From NCBI RefSeq assembly GCF_000376425.1, contig NZ_AQWL01000002.1:69231-133230 (forward strand): 64,000 nucleotides of DNA. The letters are read 5' to 3'. A model generated the notes under the pieces. It searched no databases and was not told the DNA's origin. It saw only the letters and a list, made by a program, of their open reading frames with translations. A program made the translations under genes and the position numbers. The first letter of the stretch is position 1. The number at the start of each line of letters is the position of its first letter. Shown piece by piece: positions 30,244-53,047 of the stretch. The stretch is from Thiobacillus denitrificans DSM 12475 (GTDB lineage: Bacteria > Pseudomonadota > Gammaproteobacteria > Burkholderiales > Thiobacillaceae).

Positions 30244-30313
30244 GCGACGGATGAGGGGGGATCGCGATGGCCCAGCCCCGGTTCACAGCGTAAAATGAAA
30301 TCCTATCGGCCTG

Positions 30314-34365: not shown

Positions 34366-34387
34366 CGTTTCCGCTCCGTTCGATTTC

Positions 34388-34403: not shown

Positions 34404-34461
34404 TTTCCAGACGGTGGGGGCATTGTGCCCCCCGTTTTGGAACACTCAAGGAGACGGAAGC

Positions 34462-34977: not shown

Positions 34978-34985
34978 ACAATGGT

Positions 34986-35010
34986 GTTCCATTCCGGAAC
35001 ATCGCGGAAC
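34986..35010. promoter_or_regulatory. Putative activator site C (three half-sites)
   Basis: GTTCC (34986), GGAAC (34996) and GGAAC (35006) are exactly ten bases apart. The first two form a perfect 5-5-5 inverted repeat. It lies in the short gap before sodC, about 600 bases downstream of the -24/-12 promoter, so it would act from downstream or serve an unseen promoter. Confidence 0.45.
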
Positions 35011-35040
35011 ATGGCGCTCGGCTGGATTCTCGAGGAGACA

Positions 35041-35610: not shown

Positions 35611-35782
35611 CCGATCGTCAGGGGCGGGTGTCGCGATGCGTCTCCTGCCCGCTGCGGACACGCCCCCGATTCATGCGGGGAATGACGTCATGCGGCGGTG
35701 CGTCAATATGCCACATTCCCGCACCGTCAGACCCGGGGTAACCTCTGGCGCCACGAGATCAAGAAAGATGGATGGGTGTCGG

Positions 35783-37455: not shown

Positions 37456-37476
37456 TTCAAAAATAACGGAGGAAGT

Positions 37477-39612
37477 ATGAAGCTGAACCCCATTCCGCTT
37501 GCGCTGGCGGGCATCCTGTGCGCGCCCGCTGCCTCGGCGGCGGACCCGGCCGAGGCGGCGCTGCCGGAGATGACGGTGACCGGCACCCGCGAAGGCGAGC
37601 TGCTGAGCGAGACCCCGGCGACGGTCGGCGTCGTCAGGGAGCAGACGCTGCGCGAAACCCGGCCCACCCACCCGAAGGAAATCCTCAATCAGGTGCCCGG
37701 CGTGTGGGTCAGCAATCTGTCGGGCGAGGGCCACTCCACCGCGATCCGCCAGCCGCTGACGACCAGCGCGGTCTATCTCTATCTCGAAGACGGCATCCCG
37801 ACGCGTTCCACCGGCTTCTTCAACCACAACGCGCTGTATGAGATCAACGTGCCGCAGTCGGGCGGAATGGAAATCATGAAAGGCCCGGGCAGCGCGCTGT
37901 ACGGATCGGACGCGATCGGCGGCACGATCAACGTGCTGACCCGCACGCCGCCGAAGCAGGCCGAATTCGAACTGAGCGGCGAAGCCGGGTCGTACGGCTG
38001 GGGCCGCATCCTGATGGGCGGCGGCAACGCCCACGGCGACGACGCCTGGCGCGCCAGCCTCAACCTGACGCGCACCGACGGTTGGCAGGACAACGCCGGC
38101 TACGACCGCCAGACCGGTACCGCGCGCTGGGACCGCGCGCTCGGCGATGACGCGCTGCTGAAAACCGTGCTGTCGTTTTCCAAGGTCGACCAGCAACACG
38201 TCGGCAAGCTGAGCGCGGGTGAATTCACGGCCACGCCGCGCGCCAACAATGTGCCCTTCTCCTTCCGTCAGGTCGACGCCTTCCGCCTGTCGACCGCCTA
38301 TGAAAAGGAAACCGCCAATTCGCTGCTGTCGATCACGCCCTACTTCCGCGACAACAGCATGGAGATCCTGCCGAACTGGAGCGTGGCCTACGACCCCAGC
38401 CAGTACGTCACCAAGAACAAGTCCTTCGGCTTCCTCGGCAAATACCGCCGCGATTTCGAGCCGCTGCGCGCGCGCCTCATCGTCGGCCTGGACGTCGACT
38501 ACAGCCCGGGGTCGCGCGACGAGGATTCGGTCCGCCTCGACAAGTTCACCAACGCCTATGGCGGCGTGACCTACAGCCGCAATGCCGCCGCGCCGGTGCA
38601 GATCTACGACTACGACGTGACCTACCGCGGCATTTCGCCCTATGTCCACGGCGAGGCCTCGCTCACCGACAGGCTGCGCCTGAACGCCGGCCTGCGCTAC
38701 GATGACATGCAGTACGACTACGACAACAAGTTCAACAACGGTGTGGCGGGCGCGACCCAGGGTGCGGCGGGCGCCTTCCCGGGCAACGGCTGGTACGGCC
38801 ACGTCGCCAGCACCAAGGTCGGCTACAGCCACTGGGGGCCGAAGCTGGGTGCGACCTACGCCTTCAGCGAGACGCTGAACGGCTTTGCGGCCTACAGCAA
38901 TTCCTTCCGTACCCCGTCCGAAGGCCAGGTGTTCCGCGGCAGCCGCGAGTCCACGGCAGTCAAGGCGCAGGCCGCGGCCGAATCGCTCTTGAACCTCGAC
39001 CCGGTGATCGTCGACAACCTGGAACTCGGCCTGCGCGGCAAATCCGGCGCGTTGCGCTACGAGGCGTCCGTGTATCACATGACCAAGAAGGACGACATCG
39101 TCAGCTATGTCGATCCGGTCACCACCCAGAGAACCGTGGTCAACGCCGGCAAGACCCTGCACCGTGGCATCGAACTCGGCCTCGGCCTGCCGCTGGCGCA
39201 GGACTGGCAGCTCGACGCCAGCCTGTCGTACGCCAAGCATACCTACGAGACCTGGACCGTTTCCGGGACCGCCGACTACAGCGGCAAGGAAATGGAAACC
39301 GCCCCGCGCGTGATCGCCAATACACGCCTGAGCTACGCGCCGGCCACCCTGAACGGCGGCCGCGTCCAGCTCGAATGGTTCAGGCTCGGCAGCTACTGGC
39401 TGGATGCCGCCAATACCGGCAAGTACGGTGGCCATAACCTGCTCAACCTGCGCGCCAACTACCCCTTCGGCAAGGGCATGGAAGTGTTCGGCAGCATCAG
39501 CAACCTGTTTGACAAGCGCTACGCCGAGACCGCCGACGGCACCGGCGCGGCGCCGACCTACACCGCCGGCCTGCCGCGCATGGCTATCCTCGGGCTGCAG
39601 GCGAAGTGGTAA
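37477..39612 (+). CDS. TonB-dependent outer-membrane receptor
   Basis: 711 residues. A signal peptide (to about 22) is followed by a TonB box (EMTVTGTR), a plug domain (PGVWVSNLSGEG, MKGPGSALYGSDAIGGTINV) and a 22-strand barrel ending with aromatic LQAKW. It begins 22 bases after the TlpA-like gene and is followed by dedicated tonB-exbB-exbD. The cargo is unknown; the copper-rich setting suggests a copper complex or chalkophore-like ligand over iron siderophores. Confidence 0.88.
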   Translation: MKLNPIPLALAGILCAPAASAADPAEAALPEMTVTGTREGELLSETPATVGVVREQTLRETRPTHPKEILNQVPGVWVSNLSGEGHSTAIRQPLTTSAVYLYLEDGIPTRSTGFFNHNALYEINVPQSGGMEIMKGPGSALYGSDAIGGTINVLTRTPPKQAEFELSGEAGSYGWGRILMGGGNAHGDDAWRASLNLTRTDGWQDNAGYDRQTGTARWDRALGDDALLKTVLSFSKVDQQHVGKLSAGEFTATPRANNVPFSFRQVDAFRLSTAYEKETANSLLSITPYFRDNSMEILPNWSVAYDPSQYVTKNKSFGFLGKYRRDFEPLRARLIVGLDVDYSPGSRDEDSVRLDKFTNAYGGVTYSRNAAAPVQIYDYDVTYRGISPYVHGEASLTDRLRLNAGLRYDDMQYDYDNKFNNGVAGATQGAAGAFPGNGWYGHVASTKVGYSHWGPKLGATYAFSETLNGFAAYSNSFRTPSEGQVFRGSRESTAVKAQAAAESLLNLDPVIVDNLELGLRGKSGALRYEASVYHMTKKDDIVSYVDPVTTQRTVVNAGKTLHRGIELGLGLPLAQDWQLDASLSYAKHTYETWTVSGTADYSGKEMETAPRVIANTRLSYAPATLNGGRVQLEWFRLGSYWLDAANTGKYGGHNLLNLRANYPFGKGMEVFGSISNLFDKRYAETADGTGAAPTYTAGLPRMAILGLQAKW

Positions 39613-39646
39613 GCCGGGCCATGGGCAAGCGGGGGGCGTGAACCGG

Positions 39647-40348
39647 ATGCTGCGGATGGACTGGAATCGTGCGGCGGGCCTGCTGGTGGTGCTGGCCCTG
39701 CACGGCGGCGTGCTCTATGCGCTGTGGAGCGCGCGCGTGATTCCGCCGCCGGCCGAGGCGGTGACGCTGTTCGTGAATTTCATCAATCCGCCGCCTCCGC
39801 AGCCCGCGCCACGCGTCATCCCGCCGCCGTCACCCAAGCCGGTCAAACGGGAGCCGCCGCCCAAACCGGTCAAGCCGCCGCATTACCACCTGGCGGCGGA
39901 AGCGCCGGTGGCGACGCCGCAGGAAGCGGTGGAACCGCTGCCGCCACCCGAGCCCGTGGTCGAGCCGCCGCCTGTCATAGCCGCGCCCGCGCCCGCACCC
40001 GTGCAGGCGCCGCTCCCGCCCGCGCCACCCGCCCCGCCGCCCAAACCGGCCGGGCCGGTGACGCTGGCCTCGGAGCTGGCGGTAAGCTGCCCCGAACGCA
40101 GGCCACCGGTCTACCCGCCCATGTCGCGCCGACTGGGCGAAACCGGCAAGGTCGTGCTGCGGGTGGAACTGGACGAAACGGGACGCGTGAGCACGGCGCA
40201 GGTGGTGAGCAGCAGTGGCGCCGCCCGCCTCGACGCCGCCGCGCTCGCCGCAGTCAAAAGCTGGCGCTGCAACCCTGCGCAACGCGACGGCCAGGCCGTC
40301 CGCTCGGTGGCGACACAGCCATTCAATTTCACTCTGGAAGGACGCTGA
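39647..40348 (+). CDS. tonB: TonB energy-transducing protein
   Basis: 233 residues from ATG 39647; a GTG at 39638 is possible. One N-terminal membrane helix (about 8-28) leads to a long Pro/Lys-rich spacer and a C-terminal TonB domain (RRPPVYPPMSRRLGETGKVVLRVELDETGRV). It spans the periplasm and transmits proton-motive force to the receptor encoded upstream. Confidence 0.88.
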   Translation: MLRMDWNRAAGLLVVLALHGGVLYALWSARVIPPPAEAVTLFVNFINPPPPQPAPRVIPPPSPKPVKREPPPKPVKPPHYHLAAEAPVATPQEAVEPLPPPEPVVEPPPVIAAPAPAPVQAPLPPAPPAPPPKPAGPVTLASELAVSCPERRPPVYPPMSRRLGETGKVVLRVELDETGRVSTAQVVSSSGAARLDAAALAAVKSWRCNPAQRDGQAVRSVATQPFNFTLEGR

Positions 40349-40350
40349 TC

Positions 40351-41103
40351 ATGGAAAACAGCCTGGGCTTCGCCCATTTTCTCGCGCAGACCGATGCGCT
40401 CGGGCGCATCGTGCTGCTGCTGCTGCTCTCGCTGTCGGTGGCGAGCTGGTATCTGATCGTGACCAAGGCGCTGGCGAATTATCTGGCGGGACGCCGCGCC
40501 GAGGCTTTTCTCAAGCAGTTCTGGGCGGCCGATTCGTTGCAGGACCTGAGCGCTGCGCTGCGCCGGCAGCCGGTGGACAACGCGTTTGCCGAGCTGGCGC
40601 ACGAGGCGCTCGAAGCCGCCCACGACAACCACCAGCACGGCATGCAGAAGCTGGCCGCGGCCGGCGGACTGGGCGAATTCCTCACCCGCCTGCTGCGCAA
40701 CGGCATCGACCAGGAAGCGATGCGTGTGGAGCGCGGCCTCACGGTGATGGCTTCGGCCGGTTCCGCCGCCCCCTACATCGGCCTGTTCGGCACCGTGTGG
40801 GGGATTTATCACGCGCTGGTCAATATCGGCCTGTCGGGCCAGGGCACGCTGGACAAGGTGTCGGGCCCGGTGGGCGAGGCACTGATCATGACCGCGGTCG
40901 GTCTGGCCGTGGCCATTCCCGCCGTGCTCGCCTACAACGCGTTCAATCGCCGCAACCGGGTCTGGCTGGCCAAGCTCGATGCCTTTGCGCACGATCTGTA
41001 CACGGTGATCACGGTGGGCGAGAAGGCCAACAGTTCGGCCGGCGAGGGGCGTCCGCTGCGTCCCGCGGCGAAACTGGAAGCGCGCGCCGCTGCGGAGGGT
41101 TGA
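40351..41103 (+). CDS. exbB: ExbB proton-channel subunit
   Basis: 250 residues with three membrane helices. The conserved segment SAAPYIGLFGTVWGIYHALVNI and the later GEALIMTAVGLAVAIPAVL are the hallmarks of ExbB/TolQ. It lies two bases after tonB. With ExbD it energises TonB. Confidence 0.92.
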   Translation: MENSLGFAHFLAQTDALGRIVLLLLLSLSVASWYLIVTKALANYLAGRRAEAFLKQFWAADSLQDLSAALRRQPVDNAFAELAHEALEAAHDNHQHGMQKLAAAGGLGEFLTRLLRNGIDQEAMRVERGLTVMASAGSAAPYIGLFGTVWGIYHALVNIGLSGQGTLDKVSGPVGEALIMTAVGLAVAIPAVLAYNAFNRRNRVWLAKLDAFAHDLYTVITVGEKANSSAGEGRPLRPAAKLEARAAAEG

Positions 41104-41107
41104 CGCC

Positions 41108-41536
41108 ATGGCCATGGGAAGTCTCGATCCGCGCCGGCATCAGGGCCCGATGTCGGAAATCAACGTCGTGCCGCTGGTGGACGTGATGCTGGTACTGCTG
41201 GTGATCTTCATCATCACCACGCCGCTGCTCACCCATTCCGTCAAGATCGACCTGCCCAAGGCCAGCAGCACGCCCAACATCACGCGGCCCGAGCATATCG
41301 AATTCGGCATCCGCGAGAACGGCGCCCTGTTCTGGAACGGCGCGCCGGTCACCCGGCAGGAACTGGCAGCGCGCTTTGCCGTGGCAGCGAAAAAACAGCC
41401 GCAACCCGAACTGCACATCCGCGCCGATCGTCTTGCGCACTACGAAACGGTGGCCCAGGTGATGTCGGCGGCTGCCAAGGCAGGACTGGTGCGCATTGGC
41501 TTCGTGACGGATCCGGCGCAGTCCCAAGGGCAATAG
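41108..41536 (+). CDS. exbD: ExbD proton-channel subunit
   Basis: 142 residues. The N-terminal EINVVPLVDVMLVLLVIFIIT includes the conserved membrane Asp of ExbD/TolR. A periplasmic domain follows. It completes the dedicated TonB system and is the last gene of this unit; a 666-base gap follows. Confidence 0.92.
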   Translation: MAMGSLDPRRHQGPMSEINVVPLVDVMLVLLVIFIITTPLLTHSVKIDLPKASSTPNITRPEHIEFGIRENGALFWNGAPVTRQELAARFAVAAKKQPQPELHIRADRLAHYETVAQVMSAAAKAGLVRIGFVTDPAQSQGQ

Positions 41537-42024: not shown

Positions 42025-42077
42025 AAGCGAAAAACCTGGCAAGACAATAATGTGTTGTTTTTGTTAAGTAATTTATT

Positions 42078-42093
42078 TGGCACGGTAGCTGCT
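42078..42093 (+). promoter_or_regulatory. Sigma-54 promoter of the copper-oxidoreductase operon
   Basis: TGGCACGGTAGCTGCT matches the -24 consensus exactly and keeps GC at -12. The predicted start is near 42104, giving a leader of about 99 bases to the first ATG at 42203, which follows AGGAGGAGAAAC. Confidence 0.8.
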
Positions 42094-42202: not shown

Positions 42203-42838
42203 ATGAAACTGCAAGCAAGACATGACAGGTCGAGCGGGCGGATCAAGGCCGCATGCGCTTTTGTATCACTGACGAGTCTGCTGGCTCTGCCCATGGGGTC
42301 GGCGCTGGCGGACAGCAAGGACGGGACTTTCCCCACCGCGGAGCAAGTGGGCGGACAGGTGTACATCGATCCGGTAGCGGTTGGCAAGAAGCTGCCCACC
42401 GACTTTGACGCCTATGACATGAATGGCCAGAAGGTCGATCTGGGCAGCGTGGTGCAAGGCAAGCGCTCCCTGGTGGTGTTCTTCATCTCGGCCGTGCCGG
42501 TCTCGGTGAACGAACTGGCGGCGATCGAGGACTTCACCCAGAAGAATGCCAAGGGCATCAACCTGGTGATGGTGAACGCCGACACTGTGGGCGCTGCGCT
42601 GATGGGTGGGTCGAAGGCAGTCATTCCCAACTCGGTGAAGACCATGCACTTCATCAAGAAGGAAAAGAATCTGAAGACCACCAATATCTATGTCGCGCCA
42701 AACGATGCGCTGAGCGCAGACGGCGTGTCGACCCGCCTGGGCATCCGTGGCCTGCCGACCTCGTTCCTGCTGGACGAAAAGGGCGTGGTCCAGAAGGTGT
42801 TCGTGGGCCCGCAAAAGTGGAAAAAGGGCGACATCTGA
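42203..42838 (+). CDS. Cysteine-less TlpA/peroxiredoxin-like periplasmic protein
   Basis: 211 residues with a signal peptide ending near SALADS. The fold follows TlpA/redoxins (LPTDFDAYDMNGQKVDL, SLVVFFISAVP, GIRGLPTSFLLDEKG), but where WCxxC is expected it reads ISAVPVSVNE. The mature protein has no cysteine, so it cannot do thiol exchange. It may be a structural chaperone or metal carrier for the oxidoreductase encoded 37 bases downstream. Confidence 0.7.
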   Translation: MKLQARHDRSSGRIKAACAFVSLTSLLALPMGSALADSKDGTFPTAEQVGGQVYIDPVAVGKKLPTDFDAYDMNGQKVDLGSVVQGKRSLVVFFISAVPVSVNELAAIEDFTQKNAKGINLVMVNADTVGAALMGGSKAVIPNSVKTMHFIKKEKNLKTTNIYVAPNDALSADGVSTRLGIRGLPTSFLLDEKGVVQKVFVGPQKWKKGDI

Positions 42839-42875
42839 GCCGATGGCTTGAGGTCGAAAACTTAAGGAGAATGCA

Positions 42876-44342
42876 ATGAGTATCAACAGAAGGCAGTTCA
42901 TGAAGGGCGCAGTCGCAGCTGGCGTTGCCGGTTCCGCCACCATGCTTAACTCCGGCAGCGCGTTCGCGGCCGTGCACAACCCCGTTGGCGAAGCCCAGGC
43001 TGAGCTGTTCGGCAAATTCAAGGGCAACGTGGTGCTGCTGCCGAGCAAGTACGGCGGCTACGTGCAGGCGATGGACTTGTCCGTGCCCGAGACCCTGGCC
43101 TGGTATTCCTACGGTCTGCACGGCATCGACATGCCGATCCCCCACCACATCGCTTCCATGCCGTCTGCCGACCCCTACAAGGGCTTCGACTTCTACCAGA
43201 CCATGCAGCCGCCGGCATCGCCCTACGTCAACGAGAACTCTCCCGAGTGGCGTAACCGTGGCGACTTCAAGATGTTCAAGATGCGCTACGACGGCAGCGG
43301 CAAGCAGAACTCGATCACCGTGGTCAACGACATCGGCGAAACCACCGGCATGTCGCTGGGCGTGCACGTCTCCATCGGCGTGGGCGAAAACGCCAACAAG
43401 TACGTGGCGTTCGCGGACGGCCAGAAGGACATGGTTCTGATCACCGATCTGGGCGACGTGCCGAAGATCGTCAAGGCCTTCCGCTGCGACTACGATCCGA
43501 TCGCGCGCCAGCTCAACATCAGCCACATCTTCCCCGATGCCACCACGGGCAAGTTCGACTACGTGGGCCGCAAGGGCATGAAGACCACCCACGAAGCGAT
43601 GCTGGGCGAAGAGCTGATGCCGGCCGACCCCACCGCGGTGTTCGTGGATGCCTTCACCTGGCATCCCACGCTGCCGTTCGGCGCCATCCTGATCCGCCGC
43701 CTCGGCTGCTGCGCCATCGTCGACACCCGCACCTGGGAAGTCGTGGCGCTGCTGTCGACCGCCAAGGGCTCGCCGGACAACTTCCCGCTGGTCAAGCAGA
43801 CCGGCTTCACCTGGACCTTCGCCGTGCCGTCCGTGCTGACGCCGCTGCACGAAGCGGGCTTCATCACCAGCGGTAATTATTTTGTGGCCTGTAACAACGT
43901 GCTGCAGAACAACATCGCGGTGTACCGCTCGACCGACGAAAACCCCAACAAGTGGAAGAAGGAGACCTTCGTCGAAGGCTTCGGCACCAAGTACCTGCCG
44001 CTGCACATGGGCAACGTGCCGGATTCGCGCTTCGTCTACTTCACCATGTGGGCGCGCAAGCCCAACAACGGCTACATCTGCAAGGTCGATTCCAAGACCT
44101 GGCAGGTGGTCGCCAAGTGGGATACCGGTCCGGATCCCCACACCTGCGACTGCACCGTCGACGGCAAGTACATGACCACCGTGTACAGCGGACACCAGGC
44201 AGGCCAGTCCGGCCTGGTGGTGATCAACGTCGATACCGACAAGATCGAGGCACGTCTGCCTTGTCCTGGCGGCATGCACGACCACGTCGTGGTTCCGGAG
44301 AGCTGGGAAGGTCTGAAGTTCTCCCGCAGCACCTCGGTGTAA
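42876..44342 (+). CDS. Tat-exported His-rich beta-propeller, probable copper oxidoreductase resembling thiocyanate dehydrogenase
   Basis: 488 residues. The N-terminal NRRQFMKGA is a twin-arginine signal (cleavage near 31), so the protein is exported folded with cofactor. The mature part has seven-bladed propeller repeats. Histidines recur about once per blade: 90/91 (PIPHHIAS), 164 (GVHVSIG), 325 (PLHEAGF), 377 (PLHMGN), 422 (DPHTCDC), 468/470 (GMHDHVV), plus Lys58 and Asp258. This distribution resembles the trinuclear copper site of thiocyanate dehydrogenase, a NosZ-fold relative. No CuA domain is present, so it is not nitrous oxide reductase. It has no heme motif. Genes around it supply copper handling and SoxXA cytochromes as electron acceptors. 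The substrate is unknown. Confidence 0.6.
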   Translation: MSINRRQFMKGAVAAGVAGSATMLNSGSAFAAVHNPVGEAQAELFGKFKGNVVLLPSKYGGYVQAMDLSVPETLAWYSYGLHGIDMPIPHHIASMPSADPYKGFDFYQTMQPPASPYVNENSPEWRNRGDFKMFKMRYDGSGKQNSITVVNDIGETTGMSLGVHVSIGVGENANKYVAFADGQKDMVLITDLGDVPKIVKAFRCDYDPIARQLNISHIFPDATTGKFDYVGRKGMKTTHEAMLGEELMPADPTAVFVDAFTWHPTLPFGAILIRRLGCCAIVDTRTWEVVALLSTAKGSPDNFPLVKQTGFTWTFAVPSVLTPLHEAGFITSGNYFVACNNVLQNNIAVYRSTDENPNKWKKETFVEGFGTKYLPLHMGNVPDSRFVYFTMWARKPNNGYICKVDSKTWQVVAKWDTGPDPHTCDCTVDGKYMTTVYSGHQAGQSGLVVINVDTDKIEARLPCPGGMHDHVVVPESWEGLKFSRSTSV

Positions 44343-44351
44343 TCGGTTGTT

Positions 44352-44382
44352 CCGCCGGCAGCCTCCGCTGCCGGCGGTTTTT
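44352..44382 (+). terminator. Intrinsic terminator/attenuator inside the operon
   Basis: CCGCCGGCAGC pairs perfectly with GCTGCCGGCGG around CTCC and is followed by five T. It lies ten bases after the oxidoreductase stop and before the CopC-like gene, so it should make the first two genes more abundant than those downstream. Confidence 0.85.
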
Positions 44383-44421
44383 CACTGTGATGCATCGGCG
44401 ATGCAAGCAAGGAGAAGCAAA

Positions 44422-44865
44422 ATGAATAGCAGCACTCTGAATCCGAGTCATTTGGCATATGCGGCGCACTGGCTGGCCGGCATATTCCTGATGGCTTTGT
44501 TAAGCCTGCCGGTACTGGCATGGGCGCACAGCAACGACTATCTGGCCACGGTCAAGGGCGCCCACGGCGGCATGGTGCGCATGGCGGAGATGTATCACTT
44601 CGAACTGGCGGTAAAAAATGGCGAAGCGCGCGTCTGGGTCACCGACCATGGTGATGTGGCGCAGCCGACCAAGGGGGCTAGGGCCACCTTGCGCCTGATC
44701 GACGGAAACAGCACGGTATCGGTGAACCTGAAGCCGACTGCCAGCAACGAGCTGGCCGCCAAGGACGCGCGCATCAAGACCGGCAAGGGAACGAAGATGG
44801 TGCTGACGGTCACCATGCAGGGCGAATCGCCGCTGCAGACCCGTTTTTCGCTGGACGAAAAATAA
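44422..44865 (+). CDS. Small periplasmic metal-binding protein, CopC-like in character
   Basis: 147 residues. The signal peptide probably ends AWA, leaving His36 as the first mature residue (HSNDYLATV), as in CopC-type copper chaperones. Further candidate ligands are HGGMVRMAEMYHF and VTDHGD. The remainder is a beta-sandwich-like domain also seen beside heavy-metal efflux genes. It probably carries copper to the oxidoreductase encoded upstream. Confidence 0.62.
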   Translation: MNSSTLNPSHLAYAAHWLAGIFLMALLSLPVLAWAHSNDYLATVKGAHGGMVRMAEMYHFELAVKNGEARVWVTDHGDVAQPTKGARATLRLIDGNSTVSVNLKPTASNELAAKDARIKTGKGTKMVLTVTMQGESPLQTRFSLDEK

Positions 44866-44990
44866 GCGGACGCGGAGATGCCCCGGTACCGGGCGGCTGC
44901 CGGCGAAACGGATCCGCCTGCGATCGTTTCTCCGGCGCCGACCACGGCACAGGCGGCGATTGAAGACTGGATAACCGAGGAGCGCATCCG

Positions 44991-45647
44991 ATGAGTCGAG
45001 CCGATTTTCTACTGTCGTCCCGGGCGGCCCTGGTCTACGCAGCGCTTGGCCTGATGGCCGCGGTTGCGGCAGGCGCGGCCCAAGCCCAGCCGGGCGCAAC
45101 CCAGACGGAAAACCGCAACCGCCTGGTTACCACCAACAGCTGCGTCAAATGCGATCTGGTGGGCGTCGATCTGGCAGGGCAAAACCTTCTCGGCGCCGAT
45201 CTGCGGGAGGCGGACTTGTCGCGCGCCGATCTGCACGGCGCATTCCTGATCGGCGCCAATCTGTCCAAGGCCCGCCTGGCCGGCGTCAACCTGAGCGGGG
45301 CGGTGATCGGCGGCACGGTCATGAGCGGCGCCGATCTGCAGGGCAGCAACCTGTCCGGGGTGAACGCCAACCGCACGAGCTTCACCCAGGCCAACCTGAC
45401 CGGGGTCGATTTCAGCGACGCCCTGATGGAGCGCGCCGACCTGGAAGGCGCGCATCTGCATGGTGCAAATTTCAAGGGCGCGGATTTGTACGAGGCCCGT
45501 TTCCTGTTCGCCGAAATGGCGGACACGAATTTTCTGGGGGCCAACCTGCATGCGGCCGATTTCAGCGAGGCGGAGGTGACGGGAATACAGACCGATGCCA
45601 GCACGACCTGCCCGGATTTGAAACCGGGGCCGTGCGTTTTTCAATAA
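44991..45647 (+). CDS. Secreted pentapeptide-repeat protein
   Basis: 218 residues with a signal peptide ending near GAAQAQ. A CVKC motif (NSCVKCDLVG) precedes about 25 A(D/N)LxG-type repeats (GADLREADLSRADLHG, GANLSKARLAG) that form a right-handed beta-helix. Two more cysteines lie near the C-terminus. Secreted pentapeptide proteins have few known roles; the CxxC could bind metal or form a cap disulfide. It may be a scaffold for the neighbouring cytochromes. The ribosome site is GAGGAG. Confidence 0.72.
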   Translation: MSRADFLLSSRAALVYAALGLMAAVAAGAAQAQPGATQTENRNRLVTTNSCVKCDLVGVDLAGQNLLGADLREADLSRADLHGAFLIGANLSKARLAGVNLSGAVIGGTVMSGADLQGSNLSGVNANRTSFTQANLTGVDFSDALMERADLEGAHLHGANFKGADLYEARFLFAEMADTNFLGANLHAADFSEAEVTGIQTDASTTCPDLKPGPCVFQ

Positions 45648-45686
45648 ACCCGGACGGCGACGCCCGGATAAACCCAAGGAAGAGAC

Positions 45687-46055
45687 ATGTATCAATTTCC
45701 CACGAGTATCCGCGCCGCTGGCGCATGCCTGATTCTGATGGCCGGATTCGCGCAGGCGGTACGCGCGGACGAACCCAAGGCGCCCACCGGGCAGGAGCTG
45801 GCTTTCGACAACCGCAAGGGCAATTGCCTGGCGTGCCATGCCATGCCGGGTGAATCGAAAGCCGTCACCAGCACCAACATCGCGCCGCCGCTGATCAGCA
45901 TGAAGGAACGCTTTCCGGAGCGCGCGAAGCTCTATGCCCAGGTTTGGGATGCATCGAAAGCCAATGCCGACACCCTGATGCCGCCCTTCGGCAAGCACAA
46001 GATCCTGAGCGACGACGAGATCAACAAAGTCGTGGATTACATCTACGGGCTGTAA
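45687..46055 (+). CDS. soxX: SoxX-type c-type cytochrome
   Basis: 122 residues. A signal peptide ends near AVRADE. The single heme motif is CLACH, and the Met ligand lies in LMPPFGKHK. The size and the C-terminal LSDDEINKVVDYIYGL match SoxX. With SoxA it forms the cytochrome that couples a thiol substrate to a carrier protein. No soxYZ, soxB or soxCD is in the window. Confidence 0.85.
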   Translation: MYQFPTSIRAAGACLILMAGFAQAVRADEPKAPTGQELAFDNRKGNCLACHAMPGESKAVTSTNIAPPLISMKERFPERAKLYAQVWDASKANADTLMPPFGKHKILSDDEINKVVDYIYGL

Positions 46056-46092
46056 TGGCGCGTATTCATTATCGACACCGTAGGAGAGAAAA

Positions 46093-46926
46093 ATGAAGCA
46101 ACTGATCTGGATCCTGTCCTGCCTGGGATGGCTCGCGGTCGCCGCGAATGCGCAGGCCGCACCGGAAGACGACCGCCTGAACGTGGTGAAGGCGGTGCAG
46201 AAGAAGTACCCCGAAATCAAGTTCGAGGATTACGTGTACGGCGCGCTGGCATTCAGCCCCGACGCCAAGGCCCAGTACGACGCCGTCATGACCTTCCCGC
46301 CTTACGACGCCGAAATCGAGAAAGGCGCCAAGCTGTGGGAAACCCCGTTCAAGAACGGCAAGCGCTACGCTGACTGCTTCCCGCGCGGAGGCAAGAACGT
46401 GGTCGGCAACTACCCGATGTTCGATGCCGACGCCAAGAAAGTGGTGACCTTCGAGATGGCGCTCAACCAGTGCCGTACGGCCAACGGCGAAACGGCCTAC
46501 AAGCACAGCGACATGAGCACCATGGGCCTGCTGACGGCCTATGCCCGTACCCTGTCCGACGGCATGAAGATGAACGTCAAGGTGGAAGGCAAGGACGCGC
46601 TGGCAGCCTATGAGGCAGGCAAGCGCTTCTTCCACCAGCGCCGCGGCCAGCTGAACTTTTCCTGCGCGGGTTGCCACATCAGCAACGTCGGCAACGTCCT
46701 GCGCACCGAATATCTGTCGATGGCGCCGGGCCAGGCCACCCACTGGCCGGCATTCCGCGGCGGCGACTACACGCTGTTCACCCTGCAGCGCCGCTATGCC
46801 GCGTGCAACCAGATGGTGCGCCTGGCACCGCTTGAAATCGGCGGCGAGGAATACAACAACCTCGAGTACTACCACAGCTACCTGAGCAACGGGCTGCCGC
46901 TGCAGGCATCGGTATTCAGGAAATGA
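46093..46926 (+). CDS. soxA: SoxA-type c-type cytochrome, single-heme form
   Basis: 277 residues with a signal peptide ending near ANAQA. One heme site, CAGCH, is present. The active-site cysteine that ligates heme as a persulfide is in RRYAACNQMVR. The N-terminal heme of two-heme SoxA is missing; instead two cysteines (YADCFPRGG, NQCRTANG) could form a disulfide, as in other one-heme SoxA. NLEYYHSYLSNGLPL is typical of the family. It would oxidise or conjugate a sulfur intermediate. Confidence 0.88.
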   Translation: MKQLIWILSCLGWLAVAANAQAAPEDDRLNVVKAVQKKYPEIKFEDYVYGALAFSPDAKAQYDAVMTFPPYDAEIEKGAKLWETPFKNGKRYADCFPRGGKNVVGNYPMFDADAKKVVTFEMALNQCRTANGETAYKHSDMSTMGLLTAYARTLSDGMKMNVKVEGKDALAAYEAGKRFFHQRRGQLNFSCAGCHISNVGNVLRTEYLSMAPGQATHWPAFRGGDYTLFTLQRRYAACNQMVRLAPLEIGGEEYNNLEYYHSYLSNGLPLQASVFRK

Positions 46927-46973
46927 TCCGTAGCGCACGGCAGATACTGCCCACTTATTCAAGGAGAACAGGG

Positions 46974-47300
46974 ATGAATGTATTTCGGGTTGCAGTCCGG
47001 ATCGTGGCCGCAGGAAGCGTGCTGCTCGGCATCGCGGGCCCCGCGTACGCGGCTGAAAACGCAGCCGGTGCGGCGTTGACGACCGATGCGGCGCAGGCGC
47101 TGTCGAATGCGGTGTTCGTCGTCGACCTGGCAAAGGGCAAGGGCGCGTTGTGGACGACGGCGGCCGGCGCTCTGACCCAGGCCCAGGAAGCCGCCAAAAA
47201 ACAGGATAGCGCGGCCGTGATCAAGCATGCCGCGGCAGCCAGCGAGCAGGCGTTTCTCGGCATGGCCCAGCTCGGTTACCCGCTCACCGTCGATCATTGA
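46974..47300 (+). CDS. soxK: SoxK-like SoxXA-associated small periplasmic protein
   Basis: 108 residues from ATG 46974, after AAGGAGAACAGGG. A signal peptide ends near AYAAEN. The mature part is Ala-rich and helical, with ALTQAQEAAKKQDSAAVIKHAAAASEQAFLG, the character of SoxK/SAXB, the third SoxXA subunit. Its position after soxA supports the name; similarity alone is weak. Confidence 0.55.
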   Translation: MNVFRVAVRIVAAGSVLLGIAGPAYAAENAAGAALTTDAAQALSNAVFVVDLAKGKGALWTTAAGALTQAQEAAKKQDSAAVIKHAAAASEQAFLGMAQLGYPLTVDH

Positions 47301-47448
47301 GACGGGATTCCTGCGCCAGCGGCCAGAACCGCATGGCGCGGGTGCGTCCTGACGTCTTGATGGCCTCGACGACTTGCGTGGCGGCCCGGGGCGGCACCGG
47401 GCCAGCTCGTGAAGGGCAAACAGTGACGTTGTCTGAGGAATCATAAGA

Positions 47449-48048
47449 ATGAAATGGGACTACCTGCTTTTCTATCGCTGGCTGGCCTTGAACATGGTGG
47501 GCTTCGCCATTCTTTGGGTGTTCCATATGAATGGCATGGTCGAGCCCGTTTTTCTGGCGGACAGCTCCTACATCGTGTACGTGATCGCAGGCCTGTTCCT
47601 GTACGGCATGGTGCTGTGCGGGTTTCGCGTCTGGAAGACGAGCCGCGAACTCAACTGGGTCAAGCGCGGCGACAAGGGCAAGCTCAAGGAGTTTGCCGAC
47701 AAGAGCCGTCAGTCCGACCGTGAAAGCGTGAAGGAAGCTTTCGAGATCAAGTTGTTTGCGCGCATCTCCTTCGTCAAGTACATCTCGTCCAGCCTGGTCA
47801 TGCTGGGTCTGCTCGGCACGGTGATCGGCTTCATCATGGTGCTGACCAACATTCCGGCCAATGCAGTGGGCGATGCGGCCCAGGTCGGCAAGCTGGTGGG
47901 CGCGCTCACCAACGGCATGGGCGTTGCGCTCTACACGACCCTGGTGGGCGCCATCACCAACCTGTGGCTGAACGCCAACTACAACATGTTGCGTACCGGG
48001 GTGGTCAACCTGATTGCCGCCATCCTGGAATCGGCGGACCCGCAATAG
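47449..48048 (+). CDS. MotA/TolQ/ExbB-like proton-channel protein (divergent)
   Basis: 199 residues with three membrane helices. The signature VKYISSSLVMLGLLGTVIGF and GALTNGMGVALYTTLVGAIT correspond to the two conserved channel helices of ExbB/TolQ. It is distinct from the ExbB encoded at 40351. It precedes an ExbD-like protein with an unusual periplasmic domain. The 148 bases before it contain no gene. Confidence 0.78.
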   Translation: MKWDYLLFYRWLALNMVGFAILWVFHMNGMVEPVFLADSSYIVYVIAGLFLYGMVLCGFRVWKTSRELNWVKRGDKGKLKEFADKSRQSDRESVKEAFEIKLFARISFVKYISSSLVMLGLLGTVIGFIMVLTNIPANAVGDAAQVGKLVGALTNGMGVALYTTLVGAITNLWLNANYNMLRTGVVNLIAAILESADPQ

Positions 48049-48057
48049 GCGTTCGCG

Positions 48058-48711
48058 ATGAGCAAGCATTTTTCGTTCGATGCCGAGGCCGAGGACGATT
48101 CCGACATCGTTTTCCGCGACGTCATCACCCTTGCGCTACTCGGGTTCGTGTCGCTGGTCGTCATCATGCTGCCCCACATCAATCCGCCCAAGCAAAAGCA
48201 GGCAGAAAGCAAGGAGATATCGGCACCCGGCAACGTGATCGTTGAGGCGCGCTGGGATGATCGCATCGACGCCGACGTCGATCTCTGGGTACAGGCTCCG
48301 GGCGACGTTGCCGTCGGCTACTCCAACCTCGGCGGCCAGGTCTTCAACCTGCTGCGGGACGATATCGGCTTTCGCAACGACGCGTCCAACCTGAACTACG
48401 AGAACGCCTTCTCGCGCGACATCCCGGCGGGCGAATACGCCGTCAACCTGCACATGTATTTCAACCGTGCCAACGTCTGGCCGCTCAAGGTCAAGGTTCT
48501 GGTGTCCACCATCAAGCCGAGCGGCAGTTCGCGCGTAAGCCGGCAAATACTGGTGTCCGATGTGGTCCTGAACAAGCCGGGCGAGGAGCGCACCGTGTTC
48601 CGCTTCAAGCTGGACGACAAGGGCGAACTGCTTGCGTCCAGCGTCAACGCCGCGCCGAAGGCCCTGCGCACCGACGCGCCCGGCGGCTACAACTTCGATG
48701 CCTACAAATGA
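48058..48711 (+). CDS. ExbD-like membrane protein with large beta-rich periplasmic domain
   Basis: 217 residues. One N-terminal membrane helix (about 20-42, DIVFRDVITLALLGFVSLVVI) follows an acidic leader, as in ExbD/MotB partners. The periplasmic part (60-210) is beta-rich, with ADVDLWVQAPGDVAVGYSN and IPAGEYAVNLHMYFN. That is not the ExbD/TolR or OmpA-like domain and resembles DUF2135-type folds. It should form a force-transducing stator with the preceding protein; its target is unknown. Confidence 0.6.
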   Translation: MSKHFSFDAEAEDDSDIVFRDVITLALLGFVSLVVIMLPHINPPKQKQAESKEISAPGNVIVEARWDDRIDADVDLWVQAPGDVAVGYSNLGGQVFNLLRDDIGFRNDASNLNYENAFSRDIPAGEYAVNLHMYFNRANVWPLKVKVLVSTIKPSGSSRVSRQILVSDVVLNKPGEERTVFRFKLDDKGELLASSVNAAPKALRTDAPGGYNFDAYK

Positions 48712-49253
48712 ACACCCTGCTTGCCCTGCTGGTCGCCTATCTCATCGTTTCCCTGGGCTACGCCCTGTTTTCGCTGCGGACCACCACCAGCCACGCCTTC
48801 CGCCTGACCGCGCTGCTTTATCTGGTGGCTTCGGTCGGCCTGGCGCTGTATCTCTTCAACCAGTTGCTGTCCCGGCCCAAGCCGATCGATCAGGAATATT
48901 TCTCTCAGGCCAGGGAGGCGGTGGTGCTGGCGGTGCGCCCGAAGGACGGCCAGGCGATCTATCTCTGGCTGCAGCTGCCGGACCAGGAGGCGCCCGCCTA
49001 CTACGTCATGCCATGGGACGGGCAGGCCGCAGGCGACCTGGAAATCGCGCAGCGCGAGGCGGCGCAGCAGGATGGACTGGTGCTGATGAACCATCCGTTC
49101 AAGCGCAACCAGCGTCAGGGGATCAAGGGCGACGACAGGGACAAGGTGTTCTACGCCACGCCGCCGCCGCGGCCGCCGCTCAAGTCGGGAGAAATGGATG
49201 GATCCGGCCAGGCCTTGCAATACCGTCCGCCGTCGGGCACTCCGGCCAGGTGA
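48708..49253 (+). CDS. Membrane protein of unknown function with periplasmic domain
   Basis: 181 residues, not recognised. Two N-terminal membrane helices (about 1-22 and 30-52) precede a soluble region rich in charged and Pro residues and ending PPPRPPLKSGEMDGSG. The ATG overlaps the preceding stop (ATGA), so it is the third coupled member of the ExbB/ExbD-like module. It is the last gene of the copper-oxidoreductase operon. Confidence 0.6.
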   Translation: MNTLLALLVAYLIVSLGYALFSLRTTTSHAFRLTALLYLVASVGLALYLFNQLLSRPKPIDQEYFSQAREAVVLAVRPKDGQAIYLWLQLPDQEAPAYYVMPWDGQAAGDLEIAQREAAQQDGLVLMNHPFKRNQRQGIKGDDRDKVFYATPPPRPPLKSGEMDGSGQALQYRPPSGTPAR

Positions 49254-51396: not shown

Positions 51397-51441
51397 TGGT
51401 GGCCAGGGGCGGAATCGAACCGTCGACACGCGGATTTTCAA
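51397..51441 (-). repeat. attL, partial tRNA-Phe copy
   Basis: Identical over 45 bases to 58364-58408. It contains only the 3' half of tRNA-Phe and so is not a functional tRNA. The integrase stop codon (51438-51440) lies inside it. Confidence 0.92.
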
Positions 51442-52280
51442 AGATCGTCTGGAATATTGTTAAGAACTGCATCGATCTTGCGGGCATTTTCGAGATTCAC
51501 GCTTGGCGAAAGATGGGCATATCGGCGCACCATTATGGCGGTTTTCCAGCCGCCCATTTCCTGTAACGAGTAAAGCGGTACCCCCTCCTGAACTAACCAA
51601 CTAGCCCACGTATGGCGCAGGTCATGCCAGCGGAAATTTGTAATTTGTGCACGTTCTAGAGCTTTGTACCAAGCGTGGGTCGTAAATCTCTTAATTGGGC
51701 GGTTCCTGTAGGTGAAAACATATTCCGCGTGCTTACCCTGACGGCGCTTGAGGACATCTAGCGCGGTATCGTTCAAACTGACATGCAAATCCTCATTGTT
51801 CTTGGTTTGATCGGCATATAGCCAGGCGGTTTTTCTCCGAAAATCCACTTGCTCCCAGCGCAGGCCGGTGACGTTGGAATGACGCAAGCCGGTAGCCAGT
51901 GCGAAGAGACAAGCATCACGCTGGTGTGGAAGGAGTTCGTCCAACAGCGTGCGCACCTGGTCTGGTGTAAGCCAGCGCACGCGCCGGCTAGGTTCCTTGT
52001 AGAGACGAACCTTGGGTGGTTTGGCGATCCACTCCCACTCAAAGACGGCGCGCCGCATGATGGAGCGGATCAAGGCCAGGTAGCGGTTGGCGGTGGTGGG
52101 CGAGGCCTGTTCAGCCTTGAGTTTGCCGATGTCGGCGATGACGAAGCGATCGATGTCGGCAAGGCGCTTATGACCGAGCAGCGGCTGCAGCCATTCAAGC
52201 TTTCTGCGATCGTGATCGATGGTACGTTTGTGGTTCATCTCTGTGAGCCACAAGGATGATGCGTCATTCCATATGTGCAT
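51438..52280 (-). CDS. int: Tyrosine recombinase (phage integrase)
   Basis: 280 residues. An N-terminal SAM-like DNA-binding region is followed by the catalytic domain: Arg in ATGLRHSNVTGL, HDLRHTWASW (H..R) and Tyr in VRRYAHLS. It integrates the phage into tRNA-Phe. The gene ends within attL, the usual arrangement for site-specific integration. Confidence 0.92.
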   Translation of the reverse strand: MHIWNDASSLWLTEMNHKRTIDHDRRKLEWLQPLLGHKRLADIDRFVIADIGKLKAEQASPTTANRYLALIRSIMRRAVFEWEWIAKPPKVRLYKEPSRRVRWLTPDQVRTLLDELLPHQRDACLFALATGLRHSNVTGLRWEQVDFRRKTAWLYADQTKNNEDLHVSLNDTALDVLKRRQGKHAEYVFTYRNRPIKRFTTHAWYKALERAQITNFRWHDLRHTWASWLVQEGVPLYSLQEMGGWKTAIMVRRYAHLSPSVNLENARKIDAVLNNIPDDL

Positions 52281-52302
52281 GGACGGATGGTAAAGTCAGC
52301 GC

Positions 52303-52485
52303 ATGCTATATGCGAAATTTCTTATTTTCTTAGGGCTGGCTTTGTTGGTGATTGGGCTGCTTCGCGGGCGTGGATCTGGAGCGAAAAATCAGCGGGTGCA
52401 GCGGTGGAAGTTGCTGAGGGATAAGCCGGCGGATCTGAAGGACGTGGTGTATCACCCGAAGGAGTGGCGGAGATCAAGAAAATGA
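52303..52485 (+). CDS. Small single-helix membrane protein of the prophage
   Basis: 60 residues, not recognised. One membrane helix (FLIFLGLALLVIGLL) is followed by a basic tail (GRGSGAKNQRVQRWKLLRDK). It is divergent from the integrase and on the opposite strand from the structural genes, so it may be an accessory gene. Confidence 0.45.
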   Translation: MLYAKFLIFLGLALLVIGLLRGRGSGAKNQRVQRWKLLRDKPADLKDVVYHPKEWRRSRK

Positions 52486-52487
52486 AG

Positions 52488-52898
52488 TCACCCACCAGTA
52501 CCTTGGGGAAATTTAGAGAAAGCTTCATACGTCTCCCATGCGCCCCACCCGTAAAACACATAGGCTAAAAGCACGCATGCGGCTGCGACTATATTGAAAA
52601 AAGAAGCTGATTTATAAAAAAAGCCTTTTCCCTGAAGTGTTGCGCGCTCGGATAAGTAAGTCATTCCAGAAGCGACCCCGACACTCAGCAACGCGAGGGA
52701 AAAAAGCAGCAACGGGCAGGCCAATAGTTTCACCTGATCGCTACCCTTCTGTGTTGCCAAGTGACCTATGAACGTAAGTAATGCTGCCGCTGTACCGCCT
52801 GTAATGAGGACGGCGGTTTTCACAGCAGCTAGGCCGGCCTGAATCGTGGATTCTCGCCTTGCTAAATAACGCAAATACGTGAGGCTGGCATCACCCAT
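52488..52898 (-). CDS. Prophage membrane protein of unknown function
   Basis: 136 residues with about three membrane helices (AVLITGGTAAALLTFIGHL, LLACPLLLFSLALLSVGVA, ASFFNIVAAACVLLAYVFYG). No match is recognised. Its place between the integrase and Zot, outside the coat-gene block, suggests an accessory (moron) gene such as superinfection immunity. Confidence 0.55.
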   Translation of the reverse strand: MGDASLTYLRYLARRESTIQAGLAAVKTAVLITGGTAAALLTFIGHLATQKGSDQVKLLACPLLLFSLALLSVGVASGMTYLSERATLQGKGFFYKSASFFNIVAAACVLLAYVFYGWGAWETYEAFSKFPQGTGG

Positions 52899-53047
52899 TT
52901 AGTTTTCCTCCTCTTTAGTACGGTAGTTATCTTACCCCGGGGGACATACGTTATTAACAGAAGGACATATCACACACCTTGTACGCTTAGGCCAACGGCC
53001 GGACGTGATCGTCGCAGGCCGGGACGACCGGCCTAAACGCTCCTACA
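52899..53047. other. Prophage noncoding segment
   Basis: The gap between the membrane protein and zot is GC-rich near 53000-53045 (AACGGCCGGACG, GGCCGGGACGACCGGCCT) with several self-complementary segments. It could hold the end of the coat transcript or part of the phage origin. No gene is seen. Confidence 0.35.

Follow-up and report, generated by a model that had tools for sequence, protein, structure and literature searches.

A probable thiocyanate-oxidation island of Thiobacillus in which thiocyanate dehydrogenase is linked to a SoxXA paralogue

Thiocyanate is a pollutant that is broken down by the copper enzyme thiocyanate dehydrogenase (TcDH). In one report (PMC6504805), a TcDH island with Cus genes, a kinase, a sigma-54 activator and a trx-like gene is described in Thiohalobacter and Guyparkeria; the trx-like protein is proposed there as sulfur acceptor on the basis of its fold, its authors themselves pointing out that the protein lacks the motif. 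Cells of T. thiocyanaticus HRh1 grown on thiocyanate overproduce two proteins, one of about the size of TcDH (section 15 of the same report). The enzyme of Thiohalobacter strain FOKN1, once purified, failed to oxidize thiocyanate, and an “as-yet-unknown” carrier is invoked as electron acceptor of the Thiohalobacter enzyme (PMC6934394). This inactivity suggests that enzymes of the clade might act on another substrate or require partners. In FOKN1 growing on thiocyanate, SoxYZA is abundant, though free thiosulfate was not detected. For the TcDH clusters of Thioalkalivibrio, fccAB and a c-type cytochrome are reported, but not SoxXA (PMC5328954, PMC5744179); in that genus, CytC552 takes the electrons from TcDH. 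T. thioparus DSM 505 is a standard example of the thiocyanate-hydrolase route.

The window discussed below is the whole analyzed stretch of 64,000 nucleotides from Thiobacillus denitrificans DSM 12475. Part of it we read, with a probability of roughly 60%, as a cyanate-pathway thiocyanate-oxidation island of a Thiobacillus-type bacterium, in which a dedicated SoxXA loads the sulfur from TcDH onto SoxYZ. A preliminary description of this DNA knew of no described pathway with its combination of genes, a statement that was too broad, because an island combining TcDH with the Cus, kinase, sigma-54 activator and trx-like genes had been published (PMC6504805). The enzyme itself is thus not new, since TcDH, the trx-like gene and the Cus/regulator block are known from Thiohalobacter and Guyparkeria; no description of a linkage between TcDH and Sox genes was found in the literature examined.

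The 488-residue propeller encoded at 42876-44342 (+) is a TcDH homologue by its sequence. Among solved sequences it matches nine distinct ones (E 3e-68 to 7e-80) and no others within an E limit of 10; of the nine, four are deposited as thiocyanate dehydrogenase and five under a Tat-signal name; residues 50-487 align with 5oex (E 2.5e-69) and residues 43-487 with 8q9x, which carries the Tat-signal name (E 7e-80). Identity to the T. paradoxus chain 5oex is 36.5% over 430 columns. The published active-site residues, i.e., Lys103, His135, His136, Gln156, His206, Glu288, Asp314, His381, His437, His482, His528, Asp529 and Arg544 (Figure 4 legend of PMC6504805), are all present in the alignment (13/13), and 12 are invariant across 23 aligned rows, window included, while Arg484 is a gap in one row. 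The residues singled out in the preliminary description (K58, H91, H164, D258, H325, H377, H422 and H468) each align with one of these, and the protein lacks a CxxCH heme motif, as had been noted. A non-copper propeller as best match, considered at that time, did not materialize: the matches are solved relatives of TcDH, which upholds the identification as a TcDH-type enzyme. The N-terminus starts with SINRRQFMK and scores 22.3 bits in the TAT_signal model (E 1.2e-4, just below the cut-off of 22.7), both arginines of the putative twin-arginine signal being invariant in the 23 rows. Identity with NosZ was rejected, as the NosZ-family models were silent except for L-NosZ (E 0.067, 11.7 bits, cut-off 700); nos_propeller_2 did not match the protein and found in this genome only a 657-aa frame on another contig. 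Members of the clade are found in HRh1 (81% identity), P. thiocyanatus (78%) and loci L021 (79%) and L022 (78%), and recur in thiocyanate-reactor genomes and thiocyanate-using isolates; cysteines 278, 279, 424 and 426 of the window protein are typical of this clade.

The TcDH gene is the second of ten genes, all on the + strand, at 42203-49253, separated by gaps of -4 to 148 bases in the order trx-like, TcDH, small periplasmic protein, pentapeptide protein, SoxX, SoxA, SoxK-like, ExbB and two accessory genes. The single-strand operon of the preliminary description is therefore present, but the functional unit is larger and adds the Cus, regulator and TonB genes at 25013-41536. A sigma-54 -24/-12 site, TTGGCACGGTAGCTGCT (42077-42093, +), lies 126 bp ahead of the first gene. 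Of 23 loci for which upstream DNA was available (window included), 16 have a site scoring at least 13.7 of 15.7, 13.7 being the score of the weakest of these sites; such a site lies at -121 to -126 in 7 further Thiobacillus-group loci and at -193 to -196 in 4 loci of T. thioparus type. Together with the activator gene in the window, these sites agree with the sigma-54 control suggested earlier. Because TcDH and SoxXA(K) are closely spaced on the same strand, they are probably co-transcribed.

The upstream block, also on the + strand, begins with genes for the CusB/HlyD-type membrane-fusion proteins cusB1 (25013-25879) and cusB2 (25869-27113; HlyD_D23 E 4e-26 and 7e-30) and a 1036-aa CusA-type RND efflux pump (27133-30243; ACR_tran E 1e-258) that is 79% identical to the protein encoded ahead of TcDH in T. 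thioparus DSM 505. A membrane histidine kinase with a GAF domain (30314-32995; HATPase_c, HisKA, GAF), relatives of which lie close to TcDH in L013, L015, L136, L138 and L143, is followed by an NtrC-type sigma-54 activator of the response-regulator type with the loop motif GSFTGA (32995-34365; Sigma54_activat E 1e-68, Response_reg E 1e-32). Because antisense frames distorted the clustering of open reading frames, its use was confined to locating the Cus and regulator genes. Then come a DUF302 protein (34399-34977; counterparts in L007, L012 and L013), the Cu/Zn superoxide dismutase SodC (34981-35610; Sod_Cu E 3e-43; relatives in islands L013, L142 and L031), a BNR-repeat protein (35636-36970; BNR_2 E 4e-13) and a TonB-dependent outer-membrane receptor (37477-39612; TonB_dep_Rec E 6e-44, Plug E 3e-15). 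A first energy-transfer module is composed of TonB (39647-40348; TonB_C 81.3 bits), ExbB (40351-41103; MotA_ExbB 111.7 bits) and ExbD (41108-41536; 109 bits), each above its cut-off and all three kept in L004, L007, L009, L012 and L030.

The SoxX (45687-46055, +; TIGR04485 87.8 bits, cut-off 61) and SoxA (46093-46926, +; TIGR04484 211 bits, cut-off 110) assignments of the preliminary description are secure, as both proteins pass the NCBIfam equivalog cut-offs, each has one heme motif and SoxA has its conserved cysteine. The SoxK/SAXB-like gene (46923-47300, +) is likewise present, but its product reaches 18.6 bits (E 0.0018) where the NCBIfam SAXB cut-off is 95; the T. thioparus counterpart scores 23.4 bits (E 6e-5) against the same cut-off. 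A SoxA at least 74% identical to that of the window is found in precisely 14 of 57 genus genomes, the same 14 that carry TcDH (Fisher p 1e-13, uncorrected for kinship); in G101, which has no TcDH match, a 54-aa fragment is 96% like the window SoxA. The possibility that orthologues of the propeller never occur with SoxXA is thereby excluded, and gene adjacency together with this co-occurrence supports the proposed genetic coupling. In the tree, TcDH-linked SoxA forms one clade (99/99), sister to ordinary Thiobacillus SoxA; by this placement, the window SoxA is a paralogue split off from the ordinary protein. The heme motif and Cys238, which we take to be the catalytic cysteine, are retained in every SoxA row aligned. 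The preliminary description also envisaged a separate sulfur-oxidation system, a proposal that fails because the same genome holds SoxXYZ-A-B on contig C4 (SoxY twice, SoxB once) and a cyanase on contig C6. The NHase_alpha family, which presumably includes a thiocyanate-hydrolase subunit, has no match in the window genome; the same model matches in T. thioparus, and strain DSM 505 carries both this family and the TcDH operon.

In other lineages, 6 of 15 genomes have a SoxY no more than 20 kb from TcDH, against 0.28 expected. This estimate neglects contig ends and counts every genome as independent, although G012 and G013 are near relatives; recomputed with 4 rather than 6, the chance figure is 1.4e-4. 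Near TcDH, Rhodoplanes and the SCN18 Hyphomicrobiales genome carry SoxXYZA and REEB275 carries SoxXYZ, and all SoxY tails inspected near TcDH end in GGCGG. That SoxYZ carriers, and not cytochromes alone, are recruited to TcDH islands favors a hand-over of sulfur. SoxA has one heme in Thiobacillus and two in L137, L142 and L020, which makes at least two independent joinings of Sox and TcDH likely; loci with the Sox-linked label do not group on the TcDH tree beyond what random relabelling gives (222 of 500 shuffles reach a value as low). The pathway does not depend on Sox genes in the island, because HRh1 shares the core while its SoxY lies about 640 kb away and the stretches scanned there gave no Sox match. 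The wider proposal that Sox carriers are the sulfane-sulfur acceptor in the neutrophilic TcDH clade, with thiocyanate oxidation as an entry into the Sox system by a TcDH to SoxXA to SoxYZ route that lineages reached repeatedly by recruiting SoxXA(K), SoxXYZ or SoxXYZA to the island, is put forward tentatively, at slightly less than even odds.

In the mechanism that we envisage, the kinase and NtrC-type activator would turn on the sigma-54 promoter, the Cus and TonB-receptor genes would provide or manage copper, and TcDH with its copper would be exported by the Tat system to convert thiocyanate and water to cyanate, zero-valent sulfur and two electrons. The SoxXA(K) paralogue would then take the product, most likely by transferring sulfane sulfur to the swinging-arm cysteine of SoxY, with SoxYZ encoded elsewhere; electrons would pass from SoxXA(K) to a c-type cytochrome and cyanate to the cyanase of the genome. 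The substrate, copper loading, co-transcription, uptake of TcDH sulfur by SoxXA and direction of electron flow we infer.

SoxXA might instead do no more than accept the electrons of TcDH, as a pair of c-type cytochromes, the sulfur leaving as free S0 or polysulfide. TcDH requires an external acceptor, a role filled by CytC552 in Thioalkalivibrio and reported as unknown in Thiohalobacter (PMC6934394), and in Thiobacillus and Paracoccus thiocyanatus SoxX/SoxA are close to TcDH without adjoining SoxYZ. When 13 loci were searched with a plain CxxCH pattern, candidates for a linked c-type cytochrome appeared in L013, L020, L021, L022 and L027, besides a doubtful frame in L015; only the L013 candidate and that doubtful frame are within 5 kb of TcDH. 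Against a purely electron-carrying function, the non-heme cysteines Cys238, 95 and 127 are kept in all 13 TcDH-linked SoxA rows examined, which exceeds the needs of such a carrier, and SoxYZ carriers are also encoded near TcDH in Rhodoplanes, the SCN18 genome and REEB275; we consider this account unlikely. It is similarly improbable that SoxXA(K) is a parallel thiosulfate-oxidizing set without contact with TcDH, co-expressed because thiocyanate breakdown or wastes yield thiosulfate: thiosulfate is a known SoxXA substrate and SoxYZA is abundant in FOKN1 on thiocyanate, but an ordinary SoxXYZAB already in the genome would render a second paralogue, found only with TcDH, unnecessary. That the propeller has another reduced-sulfur or nitrogen substrate, as the 36.5% identity to the characterized enzyme, the clade-typical cysteines, the inactive FOKN1 protein and the additional NHase_alpha family of T. 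thioparus might suggest, is very improbable given 13/13 active-site residues and the recurrence of the clade in thiocyanate reactors and thiocyanate-using isolates.

The redoxin/TlpA-like trx-like protein (42203-42838, +; Redoxin E 1e-12) has its sole cysteine at residue 18, i.e., a cysteine-free mature part, and none of 22 full-length relatives has a cysteine beyond residue 40 (4 partial copies are little informative), so that a cysteine-based carrier role is unlikely. The next protein (44422-44865, +, after correction of the ATG to 44422), kept beside TcDH, has N-terminal AHS and HGG motifs and no family match; the earlier label “CopC-like” is withdrawn, as no CopC model in Pfam matched at E 1. 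The secreted pentapeptide-repeat protein (44991-45647, +) is as previously described (Pentapeptide E 7e-39) and has cysteines at 51 and 54 (a CxxC) and, near the C-terminus, at 207 and 215. The CxxC is constant beside TcDH (21/21 related copies listed), and the protein may serve as sulfur acceptor, but similar cysteines occur in unrelated pentapeptide proteins.

The ExbB/ExbD-like motor of the preliminary description is supported for the first gene (47449-48048, +; MotA_ExbB E 7e-12, 45.7 bits, cut-off 22.9), but the second (48058-48711, +) has no family match, ExbD models included, and is ExbD-like in layout only, i.e., a single-helix protein with a beta-rich outer part (a model of low confidence, with a mean pLDDT of 51, shows a long helix at 15-41 and then strands). 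One of three scanned relatives matches DUF2135 weakly. A 181-aa protein without a family match (48708-49253, +) travels with these two genes. ExbB and the second gene are absent from the T. thioparus type (L013, L028 and L029) and L006-L008, and 39 of the 369 genomes examined from the class, window genome included, contain relatives of the second gene; the module is thus an optional passenger and was rejected as a component of the mechanism.

From the above discussion, the SoxXA copy emerges as a candidate, open to testing, for the so far missing recipient of the sulfur set free in thiocyanate breakdown or of its electrons, and the TcDH-specific paralogue in the genus names concrete partner proteins for their fate in the cyanate pathway. 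If the proposal is correct, Sox entry would replace the cysteine-free trx-like protein as sulfur acceptor, and the need for a Sox partner could explain the inactive purified TcDH. The presence of operon and hydrolase family together in T. thioparus DSM 505 bears on the interpretation of thiocyanate reactors.

Compared with known systems, the window is closest to HRh1 and Guyparkeria SCN-R1, with which it shares, according to PMC6504805, the order cusB1-cusB2-cusA-kinase-sigma-54 activator-trx-like-TcDH, the cusB1/cusB2 order being that of the published Thiohalobacter locus. The HRh1 TcDH is 81% identical, and small periplasmic and pentapeptide genes are also found 3' of it, but the 10 kb after TcDH show no SoxX/SoxA match and no ExbB module, and about 460 bp separate activator and trx-like gene, without the DUF302/SodC/BNR/TonB insert. 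The Thioalkalivibrio clusters (PMC5328954, PMC5744179) share TcDH, a two-component sigma-54 system and, in one genotype, TonB-receptor and BNR genes, but have copCD, an ABC transporter, tatA and fccAB in place of Cus and SoxXA, and a TcDH of about 36% identity (5oex). The Afipia “thiocyanate desulfurase”, a 489-aa TcDH-type protein proposed for thiocyanate use, is probably a relative of the 489-aa copies with the same core in L021 and L022; the available part of PMC8061750 makes no mention of a Sox linkage. In these islands, the Sox genes (SoxXYZA by scan in L137; SoxY, SoxZ and SoxA by tblastn and a CLACH frame in L139) lie upstream of cusB1 and not, as SoxXA(K) does here, downstream of TcDH. 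The ordinary Thiobacillus SoxXYZAB operon encodes a sister-clade SoxA, 60% identical to the window SoxA in the same genome, but SoxYZB adjoin it and, unlike the window paralogue, it is found irrespective of the presence of TcDH.

The DNA lies on contig 2 of a 3.6-Mb genome in 38 contigs (G000:C2:69231-133230), and the operon at 42203-49253 comprises ten + strand genes separated by gaps of -4 to 148 bases. The second gene (42876-44342) encodes a 488-residue propeller that matched nine distinct sequences of solved structure (E 7e-80 to 3e-68) and no other solved structure up to E 10; four of the nine are named thiocyanate dehydrogenase (TcDH) and five bear a Tat-signal name. Identity to the Thioalkalivibrio paradoxus chain 5oex is 36.5% over 430 columns. 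All 13 active-site residues listed in the legend of Figure 4 in PMC6504805 are present, i.e., K58, H90, H91, Q111, H164, E240, D258, H325, H377, H422, H468, D469 and R484, and every one of the six histidines, the Lys and the Asp that the preliminary description had singled out is among them. The first twelve are invariant in an alignment of 23 rows including the window, while R484 is absent from only one row, which ends early. These data argue strongly, at the level of sequence, that the propeller is a TcDH.

Five cysteines of the protein (C278, C279, C339, C424 and C426) are present in 21 to 23 of the 23 rows, C424 and C426 being located two and four residues past the copper-ligand position His422; the T. 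paradoxus enzyme has a different residue at four of these five positions. A more distant relative (32.6% identity over 92%), annotated as hypothetical, is found on plasmids NZ_LR536451.1 and NZ_CP139088.1 of the methanotroph Methylocella tundrae.

A scan of genome contigs yielded 28 TcDH loci. The core of trx-like, TcDH, small periplasmic and pentapeptide genes is found at Thiobacillus, Thiohalobacter, Rhodoplanes, Paracoccus, Afipia, Amaricoccus and Pseudaminobacter loci, and is extended by SoxX-SoxA at Thiobacillus and Hydrogenophilales loci; in REEB275 (L017) a SoxX likewise follows. Across the family, TcDH matches were obtained in 15 of 118 genomes, one of them weak (33% over part of the protein), and the 14 clear ones all belong to the window's genus. 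Three records deserve comment. In a Nitrospira defluvii NOB1 MAG (L024, G015:C21), a 74% identical TcDH (10001-11464) resides with a trx-like gene on a 152-kb contig; its surroundings correlate in base composition at 0.93 with two further contigs assigned to that bin, but since loci of unrelated bacteria reach 0.84-0.89, this counts only weakly against misbinning. The TcDH of Paracoccus sp. S-4012 (L031 10088-11453, G020:C49) is divided among three frames, which may reflect either a disrupted gene or faulty assembly. A T. thioparus-type TcDH locus is found in a record titled Rhizobium sp. MAG (L014), which agrees in contig and position with G106; since that genome is assigned to the window's genus, the title is probably wrong.

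SoxX and SoxA of the operon pass their NCBIfam cut-offs (87.8 vs 61 and 211 vs 110 bits, respectively), while the SoxK-like gene remains below its own (18.6 vs 95 bits). The ExbB of the second module is above the Pfam cut-off; nothing useful was matched in Pfam and NCBIfam scans by the small periplasmic gene or the last two operon genes. This second module (47449-49253) is complete, as in the window, at loci L004, L005, L009, L010 and L012, is represented at L006-L008 just by a 39-40% identical relative of the last gene, and is absent altogether from L013, L028 and L029. The cassette of an ExbB-like, a single-helix beta-rich and a 181-residue protein is distributed more widely (L080-L099): of the 369 genomes in the class, 39 have relatives of its middle gene; an ExbB-like match adjoins this gene at 16 of 19 additional loci retrieved, and at L099 a rhodanese is next. 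Downstream of the operon, integrase-like and Zot-like frames (51438-54145), judged by eye from translations, and a tRNA-Phe (58364-58439) suggest a prophage near the TcDH island.

The first gene encodes a redoxin-type protein whose sole cysteine, residue 18, falls within the signal region. Among 26 copies of this trx-like protein (22 full length, 4 partial), none of the full-length ones has a cysteine past residue 40, and FFISAVPVS or a close variant occupies the usual CxxC position. In the available text of PMC6504805 a homologous protein is proposed as sulfur acceptor, and the absence of the motif is acknowledged. The pentapeptide protein has a CxxC, found in 21 of 21 copies listed, and two more cysteines.

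SoxA was detected at E 0.001 or better in 50 of the 57 genomes of the genus. The genomes with full copies at least 74% identical to that of the operon number 14 and are exactly those that harbor TcDH; the next best full copies reach at most 64%. In G106 the two genes are on separate contigs, with the small periplasmic, pentapeptide and SoxX genes upstream of SoxA, and one genome (G101) has a 54-residue piece of SoxA, 96% identical, yet no TcDH match. Of the 60 rows placed in a SoxA tree, the 13 linked to TcDH, which represent 12 of the 14 genomes (the G092 and G094 copies were left out), form one group (support 99/99), whose sister is a group of 17 ordinary Thiobacillus rows (100/98); together they are separate from the remaining rows (100/100). 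An eighteenth row labeled ordinary (L002, from the window's own genome) falls outside the ordinary group on a very long branch. The heme motif and Cys238, which we take to be the catalytic cysteine, are kept in every aligned SoxA row. The shared strand, close spacing, co-inheritance and split from the ordinary copy suggest that SoxXA in Thiobacillus is dedicated to responding to thiocyanate.

SoxXA could receive from TcDH either sulfur or electrons alone. The distance from TcDH to SoxY was determined in 15 genomes among those that supplied the 28 loci, namely T. thioparus and the 14 that do not belong to the Thiobacillus group. In six of the 15 it is at most 20 kb, compared with 0.28 genomes expected by chance (p = 1.7e-7 for at least six linked genomes and 1.4e-4 for at least four, with genomes taken as independent): REEB275 (1 kb), Rhodoplanes serenus (2 kb), Amaricoccus (11 kb), Hyphomicrobiales SCN18 (13 kb), Afipia 64-13 (13 kb) and WY3 (18 kb). 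In Rhodoplanes, SoxX-Y-Z-A is divergent from TcDH and is followed by cusB-cusB-cusA-kinase-activator, while in SCN18 SoxX-Y-Z-A, a hydrolase, a weakly DsrE-like gene and then cusB1 onwards are in line with TcDH, an arrangement resembled by the Afipia island (tblastn). SoxX-Y-Z lies immediately 3' of the small periplasmic gene in REEB275, and in Amaricoccus the Cus genes are followed by SoxXYZAB. The SCN18 SoxY scores slightly higher as SoxY_para_1, below that cut-off, than as true SoxY, over the cut-off; all seven SoxY tails read, including those of Afipia 64-13 and of the window genome's ordinary copy, end in GGCGG. SoxY is unlinked in Thiohalobacter HRh1 (~640 kb) and G020 (Paracoccus sp. 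S-4012), and had no match in the Nitrospira bin (G015). Paracoccus thiocyanatus has SodC-SoxX-SoxA ~8 kb past TcDH and SoxY on other contigs, and T. thioparus has SoxXA within the TcDH operon and SoxY elsewhere in the genome; in G017, G022, G023 and G510, the contig is short or stops near the locus, which makes linkage uninformative. Because SoxYZ carriers adjoin TcDH in other lineages, the balance tips toward the linked SoxXA taking the sulfur of TcDH rather than electrons alone. We found no description of SoxXA in a TcDH operon in passages of the mostly open-access papers PMC5328954, PMC6934394, PMC8061750, PMC5248467, PMC8906906, PMC6382920, PMC5744179, PMC9456337 and PMC6504805.

The window's own genome has two SoxY genes and SoxB (884 bits vs a cut-off of 550) on contig C4, where SoxX (52%), SoxA (60%) and a SoxZ read by eye adjoin one SoxY, so that the set reads SoxX-Y-Z-A-B; cyanase is on contig C6. 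NHase_alpha, the family of a thiocyanate-hydrolase subunit but also of nitrile hydratases, was not found in this genome and was found in four of 24 related ones (T. thioparus DSM 505, the L028 and L029 genomes, and Pseudaminobacter). The window's organism thus seems to rely on TcDH alone for thiocyanate, and the T. thioparus type to carry both the TcDH and the hydrolase routes. T. thioparus DSM 505, the type strain and a standard example of thiocyanate hydrolase, has a TcDH-SoxXAK-like operon (L013 9392-14556) with NHase_alpha elsewhere in the genome.

A sigma-54 -24/-12 site (TTGGCACGGTAGCTGCT) is located 126 bp upstream of the first ATG of the operon. Among the 23 loci for which upstream DNA is available, the window being one of them, 16 have a site scoring at least 13.7 of 15.7 (four further rows without such DNA were left out). 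Its position is -121 to -126 for the window and seven Thiobacillus-group loci, -193 to -196 for four of T. thioparus type, -148 for Rhodoplanes and REEB275, and -120/-121 for L021 and L022. None was found upstream at the other seven (L015, L016, L020, L023, L024, L027 and L031). The whole window has five such sites on the + strand and one on the - strand, and a plainer pattern gave 16 matches vs 12 in shuffles; the single site is thus not significant, and the case depends on recurrence across loci.

Genes for a membrane kinase and for an NtrC-type activator whose loop reads GSFTGA are also in the window, together with those for CusA and two CusB proteins. Between the activator and TcDH reside DUF302, SodC, a BNR protein, a TonB-dependent receptor, TonB, ExbB and ExbD, the last three forming a first energy-transfer module supported by Pfam matches; an ARAGORN tRNA-Gly call on the opposite strand inside the receptor gene (37974-38061) is probably spurious. 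As far as described in the available text of PMC6504805, the Cus, kinase and activator genes have the same order at the Thiohalobacter and Guyparkeria TcDH loci, and one Thioalkalivibrio TcDH genotype, in the available parts of PMC5328954 and PMC5744179, includes receptor and BNR genes too.
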